Position numbers and translations under genes: made by a program. From Bryum argenteum (Eukaryota > Streptophyta > Bryopsida > Bryales > Bryaceae), in the NCBI GenBank assembly GCA_037043015.1, contig CM073328.1, positions 10,761,495 through 10,825,494 on the forward strand: a DNA stretch of 64,000 bases. Direction: 5' to 3'. Positions 17,204 to 64,000 of the stretch are shown one piece after another. The notes under the pieces were generated by a model, which saw only the letters and a program-made list of their open reading frames with translations, did no database searches and was not told where the DNA came from. How positions within the stretch are numbered: position 1 is the stretch's first letter; every line of letters starts with the position of its first letter.

Positions 17204-17234
17204 ATGGATGTTGTGATGAATCAATCAATTACTC

Positions 17235-17895
17235 ACCCTCTCAGAAAACCCTTGCTCGCCGCCTCAGAGAACCCTTGCTCGCCGCCTCAGAGAACCCTTG
17301 CTCGATGCCTCACACAACTCTTGCTCGCCGCCCAAGAGAACCTCTGCTTGCCGCCTCACACAACTCTTGCTCGCCGCCTCACACAACCCTTGCTCGCCGC
17401 CTCAAAGAATCCTTGTTGGCCGCAAAGATCTCTTGCGCGCCGCCTCACACACCCCTTGTTCGCCGCCTCACACAACCCTTGCTCACCGCCTCAAAGAATC
17501 CTTGTTGGCCGCAAAGATCTCTTGCGCGCCGCCTCACACAACCCTTGTTCGCCGCCTCAAAGAACTCTTGCTTGCCGCAAAGATCTCTTGCGCGCCGCCT
17601 CACACAACCCTTGCTCGCGGCCTTTGAGAACTCCTACGCGCTGCCTTACACAACCCTTGCTCGCCGCCTCAGAGAACCTTTGTTCACCACCTCACACAAC
17701 CCTTGCTCGCCGTTTCAGAGAACCCTTGCTAGCCGCCTCAGAGAACCTTGATCGGCCCTTAGAGAATCCTTGCTCGTCGCCTCAAAGCACGCTTGCTCGC
17801 CGCCTCAAAGTACGCTTGTTCGCTACCTCAAAGCACGCTTGCTCGCCGCCTAAAGAACCCTTGTTGGCCGCCTAAAAAATCCTTGCTCGCCCCCT
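17235..17895. repeat. GC-rich 23-bp minisatellite, over two dozen units
   Basis: Tandem units of about 23 bp around the core CCTTGCTCGCCGCCTCA, in variants ending CACAAC, AGAGAAC or AAAGAATC. A longer sub-pattern around GGCCGCAAAGATCTCTTGCG recurs three times. Because 23 is not a multiple of 3, each frame cycles through the same 23-residue peptide, and long open frames exist in all three plus-strand frames (17204-17875, 17275-17751, 17298-17627). The array is GC-rich in an AT-rich setting. No splice-linked gene was found around it, so I treat it as a minisatellite, not a gene. Confidence 0.9.
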
Positions 17896-18744
17896 TAGAC
17901 AACCCTAACACAGATGCCAAATAAGAACACGTGTGAGTCTTTTAGAGCTTTCTTGAAGCGTAGAAGTGGATGAAGACGTCCGAGTGAATGAAAAAGTGTA
18001 AGGCATTTATTGTCGTATTTTTTAACAATAATGTCAATAATGTAAAAATAATTTTTATTAATTGCATTGAGCATGAGGATCAATTTTTAGCACAAAGCTT
18101 TTGGAAGAGTGTCATTGATGAATTTATTTAGGTATGTCAATAGTATTGCATGTTTCTAATGTACATAAAATATACCCAAATTAGTAAATCTCAAGGTTTT
18201 GTTGGATTATAGCCACATTGCCCCTTTGGATTTTTCACTAATCAATGACCAACCATGCCTCTTCATTTCGCATGGTTGCTAGAAATCTTGCTCATATGAA
18301 AAAATAATCTAAAATTTACTACAATGTAAAAGATTAATATGGTTTCTAACTTTTCTTTTTTTACTTTTTGCAAAAATACTTCAAAATTCTATATATGCCA
18401 ACCTTCTTTTGAAATATGGAAACGTGTGCTTTGAACCACTCCTACAAATTTTTTGTTTAAATTCCTTGTGCTTTGTTTACCCCATTTACAATGAGATCTT
18501 CTTGTTCATAGATATATATAGAAAATAAATATACATATAATATTTACAATGTAAGAATGTGCTTAAAGGAGAAACATAAAACTTCAAATTAAATTGAAAT
18601 TTAAAGCACCACCTATGGAAATTATGCTATGGGCTTCATGCTCCTCGTGCACACATGAATCCAAGACATTTTGAAGATTTTGCTTTTTTTTTTGCAAGGT
18701 TCATACACATGAAATAAGGACAAATAAAATTGTGTTGTGGAGAA
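17896..18744. other. AT-rich intergenic DNA
   Basis: Low-complexity AT-rich sequence with no conserved frame, RNA gene or clear repeat boundary. Confidence 0.55.
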
Positions 18745-22289: not shown

Positions 22290-23930
22290 TGTGGTAAAAA
22301 TGGAAAGGGGGCTAGTAAAGATGATATTTAGAGTGCATGTTCTAATGTTAAGAATAAAAACCATGTTGAGAATCTTCCGGATCCTCCTCTATTCCCTACA
22401 TCCCATTGCAACAAGGTTAGTGGGGTATAAAGACTTCTCACCATGCTTCAATTCTAAGTTTAAAACCTATACAATTTAAGAATCTACTAATTTGACTAGT
22501 ATTTTTTGGTACAAACAAAAAACCTATATACTAAATATGAAATAAGCTATTTACATAGAAGAATCCTAATGTATATACTCAATATTCTATGCAATGCAAC
22601 ACACAACACATTCACATGCAAACTCCAATGTAATGTGAAAGCACTCCTAAACAAAAGGAATGAAGCATGGCCTTCCACAAGGTAAAAGCATAAACTCACT
22701 TTGTAAATATGGAAAGAGGGCCAACAAAGATCATGTTGTTTAAATTCCCAATCTAGAGTCTTATCACCACCCAACCATGTTAAGAATCTTCCAAATCCCA
22801 TTCTATTCCCTACATCCCATTGCAACAAGGTTAGTAAGGTAAAAAGACTTCTACAATCCACCTTACTTCAATCCCAAGCCGGAAACTTCTACTTCAACAT
22901 TTACTAATTTGACAATTGTTTTTTGACATAGACAACAACATACACGCTAAATATGCAATAAGCTATTTACATAAAAGAATCCTAACATATATACTGAATA
23001 TTCTTTGCAATGCAACACACAACACATTCACATGCAAACTCCAATGTAATGTGAAAGCACCCCTAAACAAAAGGAATGAAGCATGGCCTTCCGCAAGGTA
23101 AATGGTGAATACAAACTCACGTCGTAAATATGGAAAGAGGGCCAACAAATATCATGTTGTTTGGAGTGCCAATCTAGAATCTTGTTACCACCCAACCATG
23201 TCAAGATCTTTTCCCTACCTTCCAAATCCTTTGAATTCCGCTCTTTTCCCTACATCCCATTGCAACAAGGTTCGTAAGGTAAAAAGACTTCCACAATCCA
23301 CCTCATTCCAATCCCAAGGTGAAAACTTTTACTACAACATCTACCAATTCGACAATTATTTTTCGACGTAGACAAAAACCTACAAGCTCAAAATGAATTA
23401 AGCTATTTACATTAAAGAATCCTAACATACATACTGAGTATTCTATGCAATGCAACTTAAAACACACTCACATGCAAACTCCAATGTAATATGAAAGCAC
23501 TCCTAAACAAAAGGAATGAGGCGTGGCCTCCCACAAGGTAAAAAGCAAAATACAAACTCATGTGGTAAATATGGAAAGGGGGACAACAAAAATCATGTTG
23601 TCTTGAGTGCCAATCTAAAATCTTGTCAAGAATCTTCCAAATCCCACTCTATTCCCTACATCCGATTGCAACACGGTTAGCTGGGTATAAAGACTTCCAC
23701 AATCCACCTTACTCCAATCCCAAGGTAAAAACTTTTACTTCAACATCGACTAATTTGACACAGACAAACGCCAAATATGAAATTAGCCATTTACATAAAT
23801 ACCAAATATTCCATGCAATGCAACACATAAAACATTTACATGCAAGCTCCAATGTAATGTGAAAGCATCCCTAAACAAAAGGAATGAGGTATGGCCGCCC
23901 ACAAGGTAAAAGCAGAATGGGAACTGGGTT
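22290..23930. repeat. Tandem array, four units of ~410-440 bp
   Basis: Four consecutive diverged copies begin near 22290, 22700, 23110 and 23560. Each carries the blocks CTACATCCCATTGCAACA (CCGATTGCAACA in the last) and CACATGCAAACTCCAATGTA in the same order and spacing. The open frames inside are repeated with the unit and show no conserved family. This is satellite-like tandem DNA. Confidence 0.85.
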
Positions 23931-53853: not shown

Positions 53854-55460
53854 CACTACAACAAATCCAATCCAATGTGACTAGATGTAAACCGGCCTAT
53901 GTGACTGCGTAGTCACATCAGTCATCAGTTTAGTCAAAAATCAGTCATAAGACGGTCTAGTCACAGACTAGTCATGGACTAGTCATAAATGTAGTCATTT
54001 TTTTGAAGACGTGGATGGAAACGTCTATGGGAACGAGACATATGTTCCCTTGCGCAGTTCCCATAGTCATGCTTTGATTGCTTACTATATGCAGTTATAT
54101 CTAACATAGTTGTATGGTATTGGTATTTGGTTTATGTACGACTTAGTGTTGTCATAGAGTTGGTTTGGGTGACTACATGTAGTCACGTAGTCCTTAACGT
54201 GACTAATAGTAGTCATAAATTTCAATTTGATGACTCTACAAAGTCATAAGCTCCTAAAAGACTAAGTAAAAAAATGACACGTGGCGAAGGTGGACCTTGC
54301 CTCCATTTTTGTTTAGGGTTAGGGTTGAGAATATTAAGGGCAACCAGCCTCCAGCCCCTCATTTTTTGAGCTCTCTTTCTTTCTTTCTTTCTCTCTCTCT
54401 CGCTTAGAAGATTGTTGAAGGTAAGAGGTGTTGAGGAGTACTTTGAGGTAGGAGTCTTGAGTAGTACTTAGAGGTAGGAGTATAGATGAATACTTAGAGG
54501 GTCACATTTGATAGAGGAGAAGTGATTATACATGTTCCTTTTCTTTGGCACTTCTATTGATTGGCAATGAGGCAACAACTCAATTGTCCACCCAAAAGCT
54601 ATATGAACTTCTTTGAGGTATTGTGTTTCATGCATGATCCTCTCTCATCTTTAATCAAGTTTACAATCTAGAGAGTATTAAGTACAGTTGAACATTGTTG
54701 CAATTTCTTGAACCTTGTATGTATCTTCCATTAAATCCCATGTATATGTCTCCATTGTATGATTTTGGTACTGATGTGGAATGTGAATTTCAGTCAAAGA
54801 AATCATCACTCTACGCAGTCATAGGGCCACATACACGGTAAGAATTTTATCACTACTGCGAGTCACTCTTTCCAATACTGTGACTGAAACTAGTCATCTA
54901 CCCTTGACTGAAACCAATCATCTATCATTTTACTAAAACCAGTCATCTATACTACGACGGTGCACAATCATAATCCACAGCAGCTAAAAATATAACTAAC
55001 ATTAATATTCCATGTCAACAACATAAAATATGACTCCATAGAGTCACATTCCACGTTGACGACATTAACTATGACTCCACATAGTCACATTCGACGCCAG
55101 CCAAAAATATGACTCAATGCAGTCACCATTACATTACTATGCATGGTGAAAAAACCATATATGTGTTGACTGATACCTCACTACACTTAGTCACTATCTT
55201 CATATTGATGACTATATGTAGTCACACATATGTGACTCTACACAGTCATATTTTCCCAAGTCCCAATGCACGTTCCTATTTGAGGTCCAAAAACGGTGTA
55301 GGAACGCAGTATTGGGAACAAAAAATGTCCAATATGACTACTAGTCAGATTGTCCGGAGCGACTAAGTCCAAATGACTACAGATGGTGCTAGTCATATTT
55401 TGATTTATGCCCGATTTTAGTCATAAAACCTAGTCACATTGGGCTGGATTTGTTGTAGTG
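53854..55460. mobile_element. Non-autonomous CACTA (En/Spm) transposon, 1607 bp
   Basis: The ends CACTACAACAAATCCA and the inverse TGGATTTGTTGTAGTG are flanked by the 3-bp duplication TGC (53851-53853 and 55461-55463). Many short subterminal motifs built on GTGACTA/TAGTCAC occur in both orientations over the first ~450 and last ~650 bp, as expected for transposase binding sites. No transposase frame is present. The centre (54280-54420) contains TTTAGGGTTAGGGTTGAG followed by a CT-rich tract, which resembles a plant promoter and 5' UTR and may be captured host sequence. Confidence 0.92.
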
Positions 55461-55480
55461 TGCTCATACAAGCACGGCAT

Positions 55481-55640
55481 GGTGACTTAAGAAGAAGATG
55501 TATTCCCTCTCTCATTGTAGTGATTTAAGTAAGTATCCTCATGCAGGTGCAACATGGCATGGTGACTTAAGAAGAAGATGTATTCCCTCTCTCATTGTAG
55601 TGATTTAAGTAAGTATCTTCATGCAGGTGTATGGTAGAGT
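55481..55640. repeat. 80-bp tandem duplication next to the CACTA element
   Basis: Two almost identical 80-bp units start GGTGACTTAAGAAGAAGATG at 55481 and 55561. Confidence 0.9.
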
Positions 55641-55955
55641 AGCCAAAAATGGCGCAGTGCCGAAAATGGAGCCCTAGTAATCTTCACTGCCATGTACATA
55701 ATAGCTTCTCCATACAACAGTACCATGTACACACTGCAAAGATTATAGGGCGTCACTTTAGGGCACCATTTTAGGAACACCTATATTTCCATCTTTAGAA
55801 ATTCATTACTTACTGTAGAAGAGTTGAAAAATGATGATTCCACTTGCTCTAGTTTTCTACTAATTTTCCCCATGCACAAAAATTGCTTGCACTTGCAACA
55901 TTCCTGTAGATTTTCTGTGCTGAAAATTGCGCCATTATAGGACACCTTACCATAT
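55634..55955. mobile_element. Possible MITE with ATGGTA/TACCAT ends
   Basis: The left ATGGTAGAGTAGCC...ATGGCGC and the right GCGCCAT...GGACACCTTACCAT are imperfect inverted ends around an AT-rich centre. TA flanks both sides, but this may be chance. Confidence 0.4.
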
Positions 55956-57432
55956 CAAGCAAGGAGACGGGACATCAAGCCCCGGTGTGTCATTAAGGAA
56001 AGTGCTTTGTGTTTCCTCCTCTATGAATCAACAAGCCCTTGGTCTATGGGCCTATGTTACGATTGAAACCAATCAACCATAGTGACCTTATACACATAAG
56101 GTGATATTTTGTATCTTTGTATATAAACTTGTGTGTTGTTTGAGCAATATATACACATTCCAAATTTTCACATGATTCTTTATGTTTTTTCATATCTTAG
56201 AATGATTGCCTTGTCATCTTTTGAATTAATTGTCTTTGATACATGGGAAAATGCAGAGTCAAGGTCTTATTGCATCCAAGTAGTAAAAAAGTGAAAAACT
56301 TGAATGTTTGTTTGAAAGTGTAAATTGATTTTCTATTAATTTCTTAATTGAAAAACATTACTAGAGTCCCCAAATTACAAGATCCCAAATTTGCAATCTC
56401 AAACTTAAACCTAAAAAACTACACCCCAAAACCCCATTAGTTTTTACTGAACCCCACTTACTGTACATGGATGCAATGAGACCCTGGCGCAGATACAGAG
56501 GTGTGGGTTTCTTTGTGAATCTAGTAGCGCTGGCTACTCTTCATCATCCATCCCCATGGATGAATGACGCCCTTCCTACAGTTCGTGACGCCCCATTCTG
56601 TCCAGTTGCTCCATTCTGTCCAGTTCTCGAGACGCCATTCTGTCCATCAAAAACACGCAGGGATGCAGGGGTCGGGGACAACGTTGGAACTTCGCTGCCG
56701 AGCCACACTCGCGTTGAAGAGGCATTGAAGCGCTTGCTCTCGATTTCCCGAGCGCTACTGCGAGGGGCTGCGCCAAGTAATCGCGCTACACTTTGCGGGC
56801 ATTATTGGCTTCCTAGTTGTGTGCTGCAGTGACGATCCTCCTCCAAGCGGAGGTTCACCCCGTTACTTTCAACTCCCTCTCTTTTGATCATTTCAGAATA
56901 ATGAATTTCCTCGTCCGCTGCCTTAGAGATTGAGGGGATTTATTTTTATCGTCCAGGTAGAGCAGCAGCGGGAGTGTGGACGTGGTGGTGGGGAAGAGAT
57001 TATGTACGAGGTTCCCGTGTCTTTCCTGTGCGCGGCGCCGTTTCGCTCAAATCCAAGCTGCCTTTAGGACAGAGAAGGGGCAGCACGGGAGCACGCAATA
57101 GAGCTCGTTGTGTAAGCAGCCGTAATTTCAGGATTGGACGGAAATTCCTCTCAAAGCTCGCGAGGTAGCGGCGTGGAGGAGTCGTGCGTTGTGCGGTTAG
57201 ACGTCGAATTTGGGTGTGAGGATCGAGCGCGTGGGCGATCGAGCGCGGTACTCGAGCGCTAGCGTCACGAGTAGAGTTGCTCACAAAGTCGAGCCTGGTC
57301 TGTTTCTGCACTGAACTATTGTGAGCACTGGGAGCGGGGACTAGCTGGTCGGTTGCTTTCGTGTGGATCGTTTTTGATGCGAGGATCATTGTCTTGTGTT
57401 TCAGGTTACTCTTGGAGTGGCAGCAACAAAAG
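55956..57432. other. Intergenic DNA; right part GC-rich and promoter-like
   Basis: AT-rich to about 56460, then distinctly GC- and CpG-richer. A CCATTCTGTCCAGTT motif repeats near 56593-56645. The 56467-56832 frame has no recognised domain. 56960-57432 looks like the 5' UTR/promoter of the candidate gene that follows. Confidence 0.45.
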
Positions 57433-58157
57433 ATGGCTGATGATACTCTGCCTCGCGGTGAGAGTTCATGGCCGTAGTCATTGTTGTGGTTGGAATTCGG
57501 TTCCTGTTGCCTTCTCAAAGGAAGAGTGTGGTCGCCAATGCTGAATCTTACCTTGGCGTCATTCCTAATGCTTTAACGACCATGGTGTCGGTGTCCTCAA
57601 TTGATATTTATGTTGTGTGATAGGTGGCCATGGCGGTGGTTCAGTCAACCATTCAGAAAACGGTAGCACCCGACGCCGGCAGCCTATCAGCGCATTCCGA
57701 GGTCCACTGCTTCTCATTTGACTTGCTTTAAATTGGCATTATTTCTGTAATTGAGTCCCGTAACTTTTTCAAATTGGAGCTGAATGAAGCTACCTTCAGG
57801 ATTTCTAGTGCATCATCCATCGATGAAAAGTTTCGGTGGAGTTTTTTGATTCCGAGATTTAATAGCTATCAAATTGACTCATCAAACTGAATCGCAGTGA
57901 ACCTTTTCTCCCATACCTGAATTGTGGTTGACTTTAAAACTGGCGAACTCTGAATCTGGCATGCATTGTTTCACAGTTGGGAGGTCTCGAAGGGGTATTC
58001 GGACTAATGCGAGAGGAAATACCATGGCGCACGCACAAGCTATGGCGGATGGAGCGAATGTTCAACGTGTGTCGATTCCGCCTGCCGGACCTGTCAATCC
58101 ACAAGCGGGTAACGGAGCCAAACTCCACTCCGAAGAGGAGCGGGGGAAGGGACAAAA
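57433..58157 (+). CDS. Candidate gene 5' part, low-complexity protein, truncated
   Basis: Three potential exons join in frame with GT/AG sites: 57433-57457 (MADDTLPR), 57624-57701 (GGHGGGSVNHSENGSTRRRQ and PISAFR), and 57977 onward (GRSRRGIRTNARGNTMAHAQ and further Gly/Asn/Ala/Gln-rich residues). GC content is raised and a CpG-rich leader precedes it. From about 58134-58158 the sequence becomes the 3' flank shared by the zinc-finger copies, so the gene seems cut by that duplication; the open frame then runs only to 58200. I recognise no family. Splicing is a guess, and the region could be a relic or non-coding. Confidence 0.33.
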
Positions 58158-59175
58158 CACGTCAAACAACAACCATAAAAGGATATTAGAAGTCACATAG
58201 AAAACTCCTAATAGATGAAAGACCATATAGGTTCATATTTACTAATAAAAATGTAATCCTTAATCCGTAAGGGAAATCTATCATCTATGTACACACCTCA
58301 AATAGAAAATTGAGGGCCTGCCTCAATTGCAAAAGCAAAGTCTTTGTGTCGAAAACCAATAGAACAAAACCCAGGGATTGTCTACTGGAAGGAATCGAAA
58401 TGTGGATCATTGGCATGATTACTCTCACTCATGATCCCGTCCGCTAAATCATCATTTTGGTATGAATCCACATGGTTGAGGTTGGTGAGCTCATCTCGAT
58501 TCATGTTGTCGTCCTGGTTCCAATGCGGAATCTGGTGCAAGTGACTGCCATCGGAGTTCCCGACATCGCTCCTCAGGTTGCTAGGAGCTCCACGCCGCAC
58601 GTTTGAGTTGAAGTTTGTATTGCGGGTCCAATCCAAGTTGCTTGAATTCTGCTCCGTTGACGGGATGCCGGGATTCCCCTGTTGGAGGTTGTTGCTCGAT
58701 AGCTGCATCGACGAGGTACCGGGATGTTGCATGTTGTTGCTCGATTGCTGTAACATACTAGGGTGCATAGGTCCCATCGGATGTTGTTCGTGGTAGTAGG
58801 AGCCGGGCGGAAAATTCAACGATGGCCGCGCACCTAGTGCTTGCAAGGGACTGGTTATCCCCGACGCCTGTCCATAAGGACTATGAGGAATTGCTGTCGC
58901 CGCTGGTCCCCCTGCAAACCTATATCACAAATTTGCGAAAAGCATAAACAAGAGAAACAAGAGAGAGCACGCAATGAAATCTCATAACCTCTGATTATTA
59001 GATTTCCAATCAATCGAACTTACATGTTCCAAGTCTGCGCAACCATGCGTTGCTGGTTCTGCGCCTTGCCCACCAATTCCTGGGCTCTCTGAAGCTCCTC
59101 TTTCTCACGATCTGCAGCAAACGGATCAGGAAGTTAGCGATCCAAAAAAACACAGCAAAGCGGATCATGGAAGTT
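58134..59175. repeat. Left arm of a ~1-kb inverted repeat (Z4 side)
   Basis: It matches 60594-61640 in reverse complement, covering the Z-family 3' flank, exon 3, intron 2, exon 2 and a little of intron 1, with few differences. The spacer of ~1.4 kb contains Z4 exon 1 and its promoter. Confidence 0.88.
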
Positions 59176-59617
59176 ATCGATTGCAAAAAACATAGCCAGA
59201 CGGATCATGAAAATAATAAAGGATCGTAAAACACAGCAAAGCGTATTAGAGAAGGTAAGCGATAAAGGGACACAGGAGAACTATCCTCGGATATAACGAT
59301 TGAAACACAAGACGGAGCGTGGAAATCAGCAATTGAAAAAGAAATCCACGGAAATCGGGAGATAAAAATCCATTCCGGAGAGAGGGACCTGATCGGTGGC
59401 GATTCATGTGGCCGCCGAGCGCCTGCGACTTCTGGAACTCTTGATTGCAGAAGCGGCATATGTAAGGTCCCTTCGCATTCGCCTCGCCCTCGCTGCGGTT
59501 CTCATTGCTGCGCTTGCGAGAATTGGTTGCATTCTTGTCCGCCGGCGCTCCATTCTTCGCCGGCGCTCTATCGTTTCGCCGCTCATCGCCGCCGTCTCCT
59601 GCAGCTGCAGCTAACAT
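58382..59617 (-). CDS. C2H2 zinc-finger protein Z4, 3 exons, intact
   Basis: Exons 59389-59617, 59024-59111 and 58382-58919, about 284 residues. Exon 1: an Ala/Asp/Arg/Asn-rich lead, then one C2H2 finger CRFCNQEFQKSQALGGHMNR and a final His (QALGGH intact). It ends at a phase-1 donor inside a GATCAG|GTCCCT context. Exon 2 (88 bp) encodes a basic/acidic helix starting DREKEELQRAQELVGKAQNQ. Exon 3 is a disordered Asn/Gln/Ser/Met/Pro-rich tail with NNMQHPG and NNLQQGNPGI modules, ending in Asp/Asn-rich sequence. The last acceptor must be ATATAG|GTTTG to keep frame. It is probably a nuclear DNA-binding regulator; targets are unknown. Both strands are open over much of exon 3, but the minus-strand reading is the one conserved in all copies. 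Confidence 0.82.
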
Positions 59618-59635
59618 GATGATCGAAGTCGGTGA

Positions 59636-59643
59636 AATATATA
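59636..59643 (-). promoter_or_regulatory. TATA-like box of Z4
   Basis: TATATATT starts 26 bp upstream of the Z4 Met, closer than the usual 30-35 bp between TATA and the transcription start in plants. Confidence 0.5.
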
Positions 59644-60593
59644 GGAGACGACTCTAGTGGATCCGCGAGTGAATCTCAAGTGCAAAACTCAGACACAGCA
59701 GTTCAGGATGACGAGGAACGAGGCGATGAATGCATACACACGAGTCACAGCAAGGAGTTTCCTTGTTCCTTCTTCCGTCGAATCTTCGAATCTTCGAATC
59801 TTAGAAAGATTTCTTTCTTCTTTTCGCACTTTTTACTTGTTATCTTCTGAGCTGACCTTATCGTATTTAGTTAATAAGAGTTTTGATATTTGTGTGTCCT
59901 CTTTTCACACTTACAGTAAATATTATGCATCTTTTCATACACCAAAATTAAAGGATATTTTAGAAATATACATTTTTGTTCTACTTGTAAAAAAATTCTA
60001 AATCTGTACTGCTAAATAATAGTATGACTTGATTTATGTGCAAAAACATAATTGGAGCTGAGTAATGCAAAATTGAAATTTTAAAAAAAATAAAAAAATG
60101 TATTCATTTTTATTAAGTTGGACTTTAATATGGAAAGTTTAAACAAAAAAATCAATAAATTATTACTTCTCTTAATATTAACCTCAACTTAACCCTTAAA
60201 CGTCAGACCCAGCCCGAGGGGTTGGGTTTTTTTTTGAGAGAATCTTGCTCATAACTTACACTCCATTATACCAAATGGAATTTTTAAAATTCCAAACTGA
60301 GCACCTTAAAGAGATCTATACTTTCTTAGAATAGAGCTCACGCAAATTAAAAATAGAATAATGCTAAAAGTGGAGTTTTAAAAGAGATTTTGGGTGTGGT
60401 ATCAGGACAGCATATGACGTTTAAGGATTAAAATTGTTATTGTCGTTCAGTCACATTAGTGGTAAGCGAGGGAGCTTGTCGTTTAGCGAAAAAGCAAGGA
60501 AGTGTGGAGGTGAGCAAAGCACCTTGTTGTTTAGCGAAGAAGTGGTGGTGCTGTGGTGAGTGAGGTTTTTTTGTTGTTGTTTAGCAAAATAGC
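59644..60593. other. 5' flank of Z4, shared with Z2, and spacer of the inverted repeat
   Basis: Close match to 41288-42010 of the Z2 unit apart from the 235-bp E4 insertion. It contains TTTAGCGAAAAA-type motifs. It also forms the region between divergent Z4 (minus) and Z5 (plus). Confidence 0.8.
60193..60427. mobile_element. piggyBac-like MITE E4, 235 bp, with empty paralogous site
   Basis: The ends are CCCTTAAACGTCA and the inverse TGACGTTTAAGGA, flanked by TTAA at 60189-60192 and 60428-60431. The paralogous Z2 flank has one uninterrupted TTAA at 41843-41846, proving insertion at TTAA with its duplication. Confidence 0.92.
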
Positions 60594-61640
60594 ATCTTCA
60601 TGATCCGTCTTGCTATGATTTTTGAAATCGCTAACTTCCTGATCCATTTTGCTGCAGATCATGAGAAAGAGGAGCTTCAGAGAGCCCAGGAATTGGTGGG
60701 CAAGGCGCAGAACCAGCAACGCATGGTTGCGCAGACCTGGAACATGTAAGTTCGATTGATTGGAAATCTAATAATTAGAGGTTATGAGATTTCATTGCGT
60801 GCTCTCTCTTGTTTCTCTTGTTTATGCTTTTCGCAAATTTGTGATATAGGTTTGCAGGGGGACCAGCGGCGACAGCAATTCCTCATAGTCCTTATGGACA
60901 GGCGTCGGGGATAACCAGTCCCTTGCAAGCACTAGGTGCGCGGCCATCGTTGAATTTTCCGCCCGGCTCCTACTACCACGAACAACATCCGATGGGACCT
61001 ATGCACCCTAGTATGTTACAGCAATCGAGCAACAACATGCAACATCCCGGTACCTCGTCGATGCAGCTATCGAGCAACAACCTCCAACAGGGGAATCCCG
61101 GCATCCCGTCAACGGAGCAGAATACAAACAACTTGGATTGGACCCGCAATACAAACTTCAACTCAAATGTGCAGCGTGGAGCTCCTAGCAACCTGAGGAG
61201 CGATGTCGGGAACTCCGCTGGCAATCACTTGCACCAGATTCCGCATTGGAACCAAGACGACAACATGAATGGAGATGAGCTCACCGACCTCAACCATGTG
61301 GATTCATACCAAAATGATGATTTAGCGAACGAGATCATGAGTGAGAGTAATCATGACAATGATCCACATTTCAATTCCTTCCAGTAGACAATCCCTGGAT
61401 TTTGTTCTATTGGTTTTTGACACAAAGACTTTGCTTTTGCAGTTGAGGCAGGCCCTCAATTTTCCATTTGAGGTGTGTACATAGATGATAGATTTTCCTT
61501 ACGGATTATGGAGTACATTTTTATTATTAAATGTGAACCTCTATATGGTCTTTCATCTATTCGGAGTTTTCTATGTGACATCTAGTATCCTTTTATGGTT
61601 GTTGTTTGACGTGTTTTGTCCCTTACCCTGCTCCACTTCA
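60594..61640. repeat. Right arm of the ~1-kb inverted repeat (Z5 side)
   Basis: Reverse complement of 58134-59175. The arm ends are inside the intron upstream of exon 2 on one side and in the 3' flank on the other. Confidence 0.88.
60658..61387 (+). pseudogene. Zinc-finger gene copy Z5, lacking the finger exon
   Basis: Exon 2 (60658-60745) and exon 3 (60850-61387) are intact in frame, with GTAAGT and ATATAG splice sites kept and few changes from Z4 (DHEKEELQRAQ at the exon 2 start). Exon 1 with the zinc finger and the promoter are missing; upstream lies the flank of the divergent Z4. An intact tail without a DNA-binding domain could be made only from a new start (exon 3 has a downstream Met). 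It is more likely a truncated copy. Confidence 0.8.
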
Positions 61641-61901
61641 AGCATCCTCCAACTACCACTTTGAGCTCAGGCCTGGCTTCGAAGAGAAATACATCCTCTG
61701 GAATGTGGTTGCACGATCGAACCATTTTTGTCAGGGGAAAGGATGGCGGCCTTGACGAGGGCGCCGACCACCGGTCCGAGAGTCCCTGGAAGCGCGCCGG
61801 GTCTCATGTTGCAGGTGTAGCAGGGAATGACATGGCGACACTTCCCCCCAACAATAGCCTCCAATCGGACATGAGGAGGTGTATTCATGTCCTCGTATCT
61901 A
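61641..61901. other. GC-rich, coding-like patch interrupted by the Tc1 element
   Basis: 260 bp of high GC (for example GGCGGCCTTGACGAGGGCGC) lie in otherwise AT-rich DNA. The plus-strand frame stays open throughout. If the Tc1 element is removed, a plus-strand frame also reads across its TA site (CPRIYKLYQQLINKR). It may be a remnant of the candidate gene at 57.43-58.16 kb, separated by the zinc-finger inverted repeat; this is speculative. Confidence 0.25.
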
Positions 61902-63495
61902 CAGTGACCTTCAAAATTGTCCCAATGTTTGTACATGTTACATTCAAAAAATAATGTAGGTAAGAGAAACTCATGGAATGGAATGTAGTAAATTTATTGA
62001 AATAGTACATACAATGTACTAATTGATTACAAAAATTCCAACAAAATTGAAGCGCTCAATGAGAAAGGAAAAAACCTAAAGCTACTCTGTACATTGGTAC
62101 ACTTTTGAACGTCCAACATGGAAATTTCTCACCACTTTGTCCATTTTCCTCTGGATTTTAATACAGCTGCTATTCGTCTGGGCATTGATTCTATAAGTCT
62201 CTTGCAATCATCAACAGTGATAGAAGGGAAGGTTTCTTCCACACGAGACCATAATTCAAGTATCCCTTTTGGTGGTGTGTCATATCGATTCAATCTCCTT
62301 TTCAAAATTGCCCATAGATTTTCTATAGGATTCAAATCGAGACCGAAAGAGGCCAAGATAAGACACCAAAAGGTTGCCTAGAAAACCATTGTTTCATACT
62401 ATTCTTGGTATGTATAGGTGCATTATCCTGTTGAAATATGACTCCCGATGGATCTAAATTATATTTTTGAATTGTACCATGGAGATGCTCCTCCAAGATT
62501 TTTTGATAACCATGCTGATTGAGGCGACCTTCAATTCTACACATCATGCCAGTCCATGTATACACATACATCCCCATATCATCACGAGAACCACCACCAT
62601 GCTTAACGATCGGAATAACGGTCCGCTCAAAGTTTCTGTGGATCACCAACCCAACACCAAACTCTCCCATCCAAGAAAATCATTAATTTTAGTCTCATCG
62701 GAGAATATCACGTGACTCCAGTCATCAATAGTATAGTCTTTGATACTTTCTCGCAAATTCTAAGCGAGCCCTAATATTCTTTGCGTGACAAATGTGGTTT
62801 CTTTTCTTTCACATGCGATTGCAAACCCGCTCTACAAAGTCCACGGCGTCTGATAACTTCACCGACTTGTACTCCAAAACTTCTTGCACATGTTTAGTAG
62901 CTTCTCTTGCAAAAGAGACACCTTCCCTCTTGTTATACTAGTTACACAAGACCACTCCATTGCACTTGTCAACTTGCGTGGTCTACCTCCAACTAAAAGC
63001 TTTGCATCTGGAAAATGCTTCTTACGGAGCCTCTGTACACTTGATTTACCAACATGCAAAGAATTTGCTATCTCTCTCACACTACAACCTTTTTGAAGCA
63101 AAGAGAGTATACCTTGTTGCTTCCCCTGGGACAATGGTCTCACCATTTTCACTTGTGAAGCTAAACACGAAAGAAACAAATATATGACGCAAGAAGAACA
63201 AATACACACAACAGAACACAAACCAAGCAATTCACAATGCATGTACACTTCACTTGCTATGCATACAAGATTCACTCATATGTACTTTCAAAATTGTCCC
63301 AATGAAGAGAAAATATCTAGAGCTTCAATTCATGCACATACATGTAGAGACAAGTGGTAAGCCTTGCTCCTTGATTACCTTACTAATGATAGTATGTAAC
63401 TAAATTGATGCCATGTCAGTCTAGCATGCAATCACTATGTGGTGACTCACCAAACTTTCAAATTATAAACATTGGGACACTTTTGAAGGTCACTG
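61902..63495 (-). mobile_element. Tc1/mariner-superfamily transposon (Tc1 type), 1594 bp
   Basis: Inverted ends of ~26-30 bp, CAGTGACCTTCAAAA then TGTCCCAATG, are flanked by the TA target duplication (61900-61901 and 63496-63497). Second copies of the same motif lie inside at 62091-62113 and 63284-63304, each inverted relative to the outer copy at its own end, so both ends form a ~212-bp inverted pair. The interior carries a damaged transposase on the minus strand. Confidence 0.93.
62129..63147 (-). pseudogene. Tc1-type (DD34E) transposase, broken
   Basis: The start is probably the Met at ~63146. The N-terminal part has the paired helix-turn-helix DNA-binding region (GCSVREIANSLHVGKSSVQR) and a GRPRKL AT-hook-like motif. 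The catalytic core follows: SDETK (first Asp), KHGGGS, QQDNAPIHTK (second Asp), VLSWP, DLNPIENLW (Glu). Counting through the break, 34 residues separate the second Asp from the Glu. The frame is interrupted by a stop and shifts between ~62670 and 62860, by two shifts around the KHGGGS-to-TWTGMM segment, and by one shift just before DLNPIEN. It is therefore inactive as it stands. Confidence 0.9.
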
Positions 63496-63497
63496 TA

Positions 63498-64000
63498 CAA
63501 GCTCTACCAGCAATTAATCAATAAACGTAGATTTTACTTTCGTAGATTTATCCATTGTACCCTTCTGGGTGCTGGATAAGTCGAGGGAATCGCGCGGACG
63601 TGGCATAGGACATACTGTACCTGTTTCGTCTTAATAGCATACACCCGCCCAAAATTACCGACTCACGAAGTTTTTAACACAATCCAGCTATTATCCCCTT
63701 CTTCATAAAATTATTCGGTAATTCTATTTGTTACCTGCATGATACTTGGGTAATACTCGTGTGATACTTTGGTGATAATTAGAATATGAATTGGAAAAAA
63801 ACCTAACTCTGTCAAATTGAATCTGGTAATTTGACAACTTTGTTTGATTGATTTACAACTCACTGACCAAACATTGGATTGCAATGTATAATTAAATGTT
63901 CAAAAATATAAATGGTATCAATTAGGAATGTTGGATACTAAGAGCTAGTTTCTACTAAAGATCTTTACCCAGTATCTTTTTGTGGGCCACTTTTATGTTC
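63498..64000. other. Right-edge flank, no gene seen
   Basis: After ~100 bp of open sequence directly beyond the Tc1 element the DNA is AT-rich with no recognised feature. Confidence 0.5.

Follow-up and report, generated by a model that had tools for sequence, protein, structure and literature searches.

Can a zinc-finger gene that lies beside an inverted partial copy of itself give rise to a hairpin RNA, and what would transcribe it? The question is posed by a 64,000-nucleotide stretch of the Bryum argenteum genome (GCA_037043015.1, contig CM073328.1, positions 10,761,495 to 10,825,494; referred to as the window), for which a first-pass annotation had proposed a hairpin-forming repeat of recent origin, capable of silencing the whole Z family of zinc-finger genes.

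The inverted repeat and gene A

The zinc-finger gene occupies 58382–59617 on the minus strand (predicted exon limits; Pfam zf-C2H2_6, E=3e-06), and sequence comparison places the inverted partial copy at 60658–61387 on the plus strand. Self-comparison confirmed that the proposed ~1-kb inverted repeat is real, with a left arm at 58132–59173 (minus strand) and a right arm at 60596–61639 (plus strand) separated by a ~1.4-kb spacer (59174–60595). When aligned for divergence, the arms differ at 39 of 1041 aligned bases, and the locus thus shares with the soybean locus GmIRCHS an extended, gene-derived inverted repeat with nearly identical arms. Within 104 kb of contiguous chromosome, only this one of the 19 listed matches of at least 100 bp is inverted, reaches both 500 bp and 90% identity, and has its arms no more than 5 kb apart. 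The splice sites and frame of the copy are intact as claimed, an ATG at 60615 opening a 222-amino-acid frame that runs across them.

Comparison with two neighbouring paralogs, A' and A'' (coordinates in window numbering extended rightward), places the zinc-finger gene and its copy inside the disrupted end of an adjoining gene, A. A feature with a 108-amino-acid frame lies at 57433–58200 on the plus strand, its last base calculated from the frame. The match between A and A' runs up to 58114 and picks up again at 61630, equivalent to A' 72428, with the downstream flank of gene A (61630–61904, plus strand) homologous to A' 72428–72691. Of the sequence absent from A, A' 71819–71941 matches A'' 78136–78258 and A' 71973–72332 matches A'' 78170–78520; the two A'' stretches overlap because A' carries an internal repeat. 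As these stretches absent from A are present in both paralogs, the interrupted form of A is the derived one. Across 56.0–58.1 kb, A and A' are collinear, with greater divergence at 56.5–56.75 kb (60 differences in 245), and the upstream region of A has therefore been retained. Gene A, judged by its sequence, runs into the inverted repeat with its own 3' end gone, and its 5' part is positioned to transcribe both arms. By eye, CTCCACT flanks the insertion on both sides. This need not be a target-site duplication, since A' holds both copies approximately 0.5 kb apart.

Fold-back potential and competing explanations

We tentatively favour a candidate hairpin-RNA locus read through from gene A. On this reading, transcription of A would continue through both arms and yield an RNA able to fold back on itself as a 1-kb duplex. 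In the predicted RNA (57433–61640), the right arm pairs with 1013 of 1083 left-arm bases, and 517 21-mers are identical between the arms. The eukaryotic RNA-dependent RNA polymerase family PF05183 has 26 above-cut-off matches on several contigs, compared with none in 14 control genomes. As a structural proposal the hairpin idea is sound, and is better supported than the first-pass annotation knew because of gene A. The inverted repeat is confirmed, while recency and silencing of the whole Z family are unsupported as stated.

The argument for recency had relied on the intact frames. The arms share an identical tract of 347 bp (58646–58992), a length reached by 0 of 200000 random placements, and by 1269 of 100000 (P=0.013) when only family-variable sites are considered. 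This is probably the result of arm-to-arm gene conversion, which can likewise preserve frames and identity.

Conversion also features in the strongest rival, a sizeable though doubtful possibility, in which the repeat is an inert structural by-product of break repair, its similarity held by gene conversion and its small RNAs negligible. However, gene A enters the repeat without its own 3' end, and the comparable soybean locus is transcribed. It is unlikely that the transcript terminates as hexamers suggest: plant poly(A) signals are loose, and hexamers by themselves are therefore no proof of a transcript end. We consider it improbable that this is a self-targeting silencing locus, in which the target gene forms one arm, the neighbour's promoter drives the hairpin and arm-to-arm conversion keeps the small interfering RNAs (siRNAs) matched as both drift. 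Marginally less probable still is that the right-arm plus-strand copy is a gene in its own right, despite the open 222-amino-acid frame and intact splice sites. An assembly fold-back artefact is very unlikely: long inverted repeats are a familiar artefact class, but these arms differ at 39 positions, their distinct flanks each match a separate part of A', and a miniature inverted-repeat transposable element (MITE) is present in the spacer.

Mobile elements and other repeats

The spacer MITE (60189–60431) has TTAA on each side and ends CCTTAAACGTCA, as identified by eye; we take its family to be piggyBac-like. It has 505 candidates in the genome, and the 40 scored, itself included, comprise 39 other places at 99–100% identity. 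Two nearby copies show 92% and 96% identity. This abundance and identity suggest recent activity of the family. A second element, presumably mariner/Tc1-like, with ends ACAGTGACCTTCAAAA, interrupts the flank downstream of gene A (61897–63500, approximate edges); its first ~500 bases occur at 39 other places at 97–99% among 40 scored of 101 candidates.

The inverted repeat itself does not resemble a transposon with long terminal inverted repeats and copies elsewhere, as the right arm (60648–61640) finds five places including itself, all in its own array. No Rfam match above gathering score, to a curated microRNA family or otherwise, was found in 54000–64000, although a new microRNA would be absent from Rfam. 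Elsewhere in the window, 17229–17907 holds a short tandem repeat array with long plus-strand open frames, and 22359–23910 holds direct repeats of ~120–860 bp at 77–86% identity.

Related loci and wider meaning

The locus is a candidate further member of the GmIRCHS-like inverted-repeat silencing loci, as opposed to a new kind; rice Lgc1 and persimmon OGI/MeGI offer comparable cases.

At GmIRCHS (the soybean I locus), a DnaJ gene contributes its 5' part and promoter, to which pseudoCHS3 is attached as a 1,087-bp inverted repeat; double-stranded RNA from the locus has been detected (PMC13051633). Both loci fuse an upstream gene's 5' part and promoter, here a putative one, to a ~1.1-kb inverted repeat of another gene. 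GmIRCHS has tail-to-tail pseudogene arms and a 78-bp spacer, whereas the arms here are head-to-head across 1.4 kb and one is part of the one intact putative target found. Maize Mu killer is likewise a partial inverted duplication adjoining a gene with read-through transcripts, but its target is a transposon, and later work found antisense RNAs not derived from the flanking gene, a caution for the read-through reading (PMC3440606). The inverted partial ARR17 copies of Populus euphratica yield 24-nt siRNAs but are Y-linked and distant from their target gene (PMC9636151). Read-through into inverted-repeat T-DNAs can silence in tobacco cells (PMC6196474). The inverted-duplication model of microRNA origin also starts from an inverted gene copy (PMC3237417), whereas the arms here retain full exon-intron length, are still ~96% alike and match no microRNA family. 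Willow sex chromosome palindromes similarly combine inverted arms with signs of conversion, although those two span over 200 kb (PMC7023750).

For inverted gene copies, intact frames and high identity can stem from gene conversion as opposed to youth. If transcribed, the locus would be a natural hairpin locus beside its parent gene, with uninterrupted neighbour paralogs and the insertion site all within ~20 kb, and every step from duplication to silencing would be testable in a single plant.
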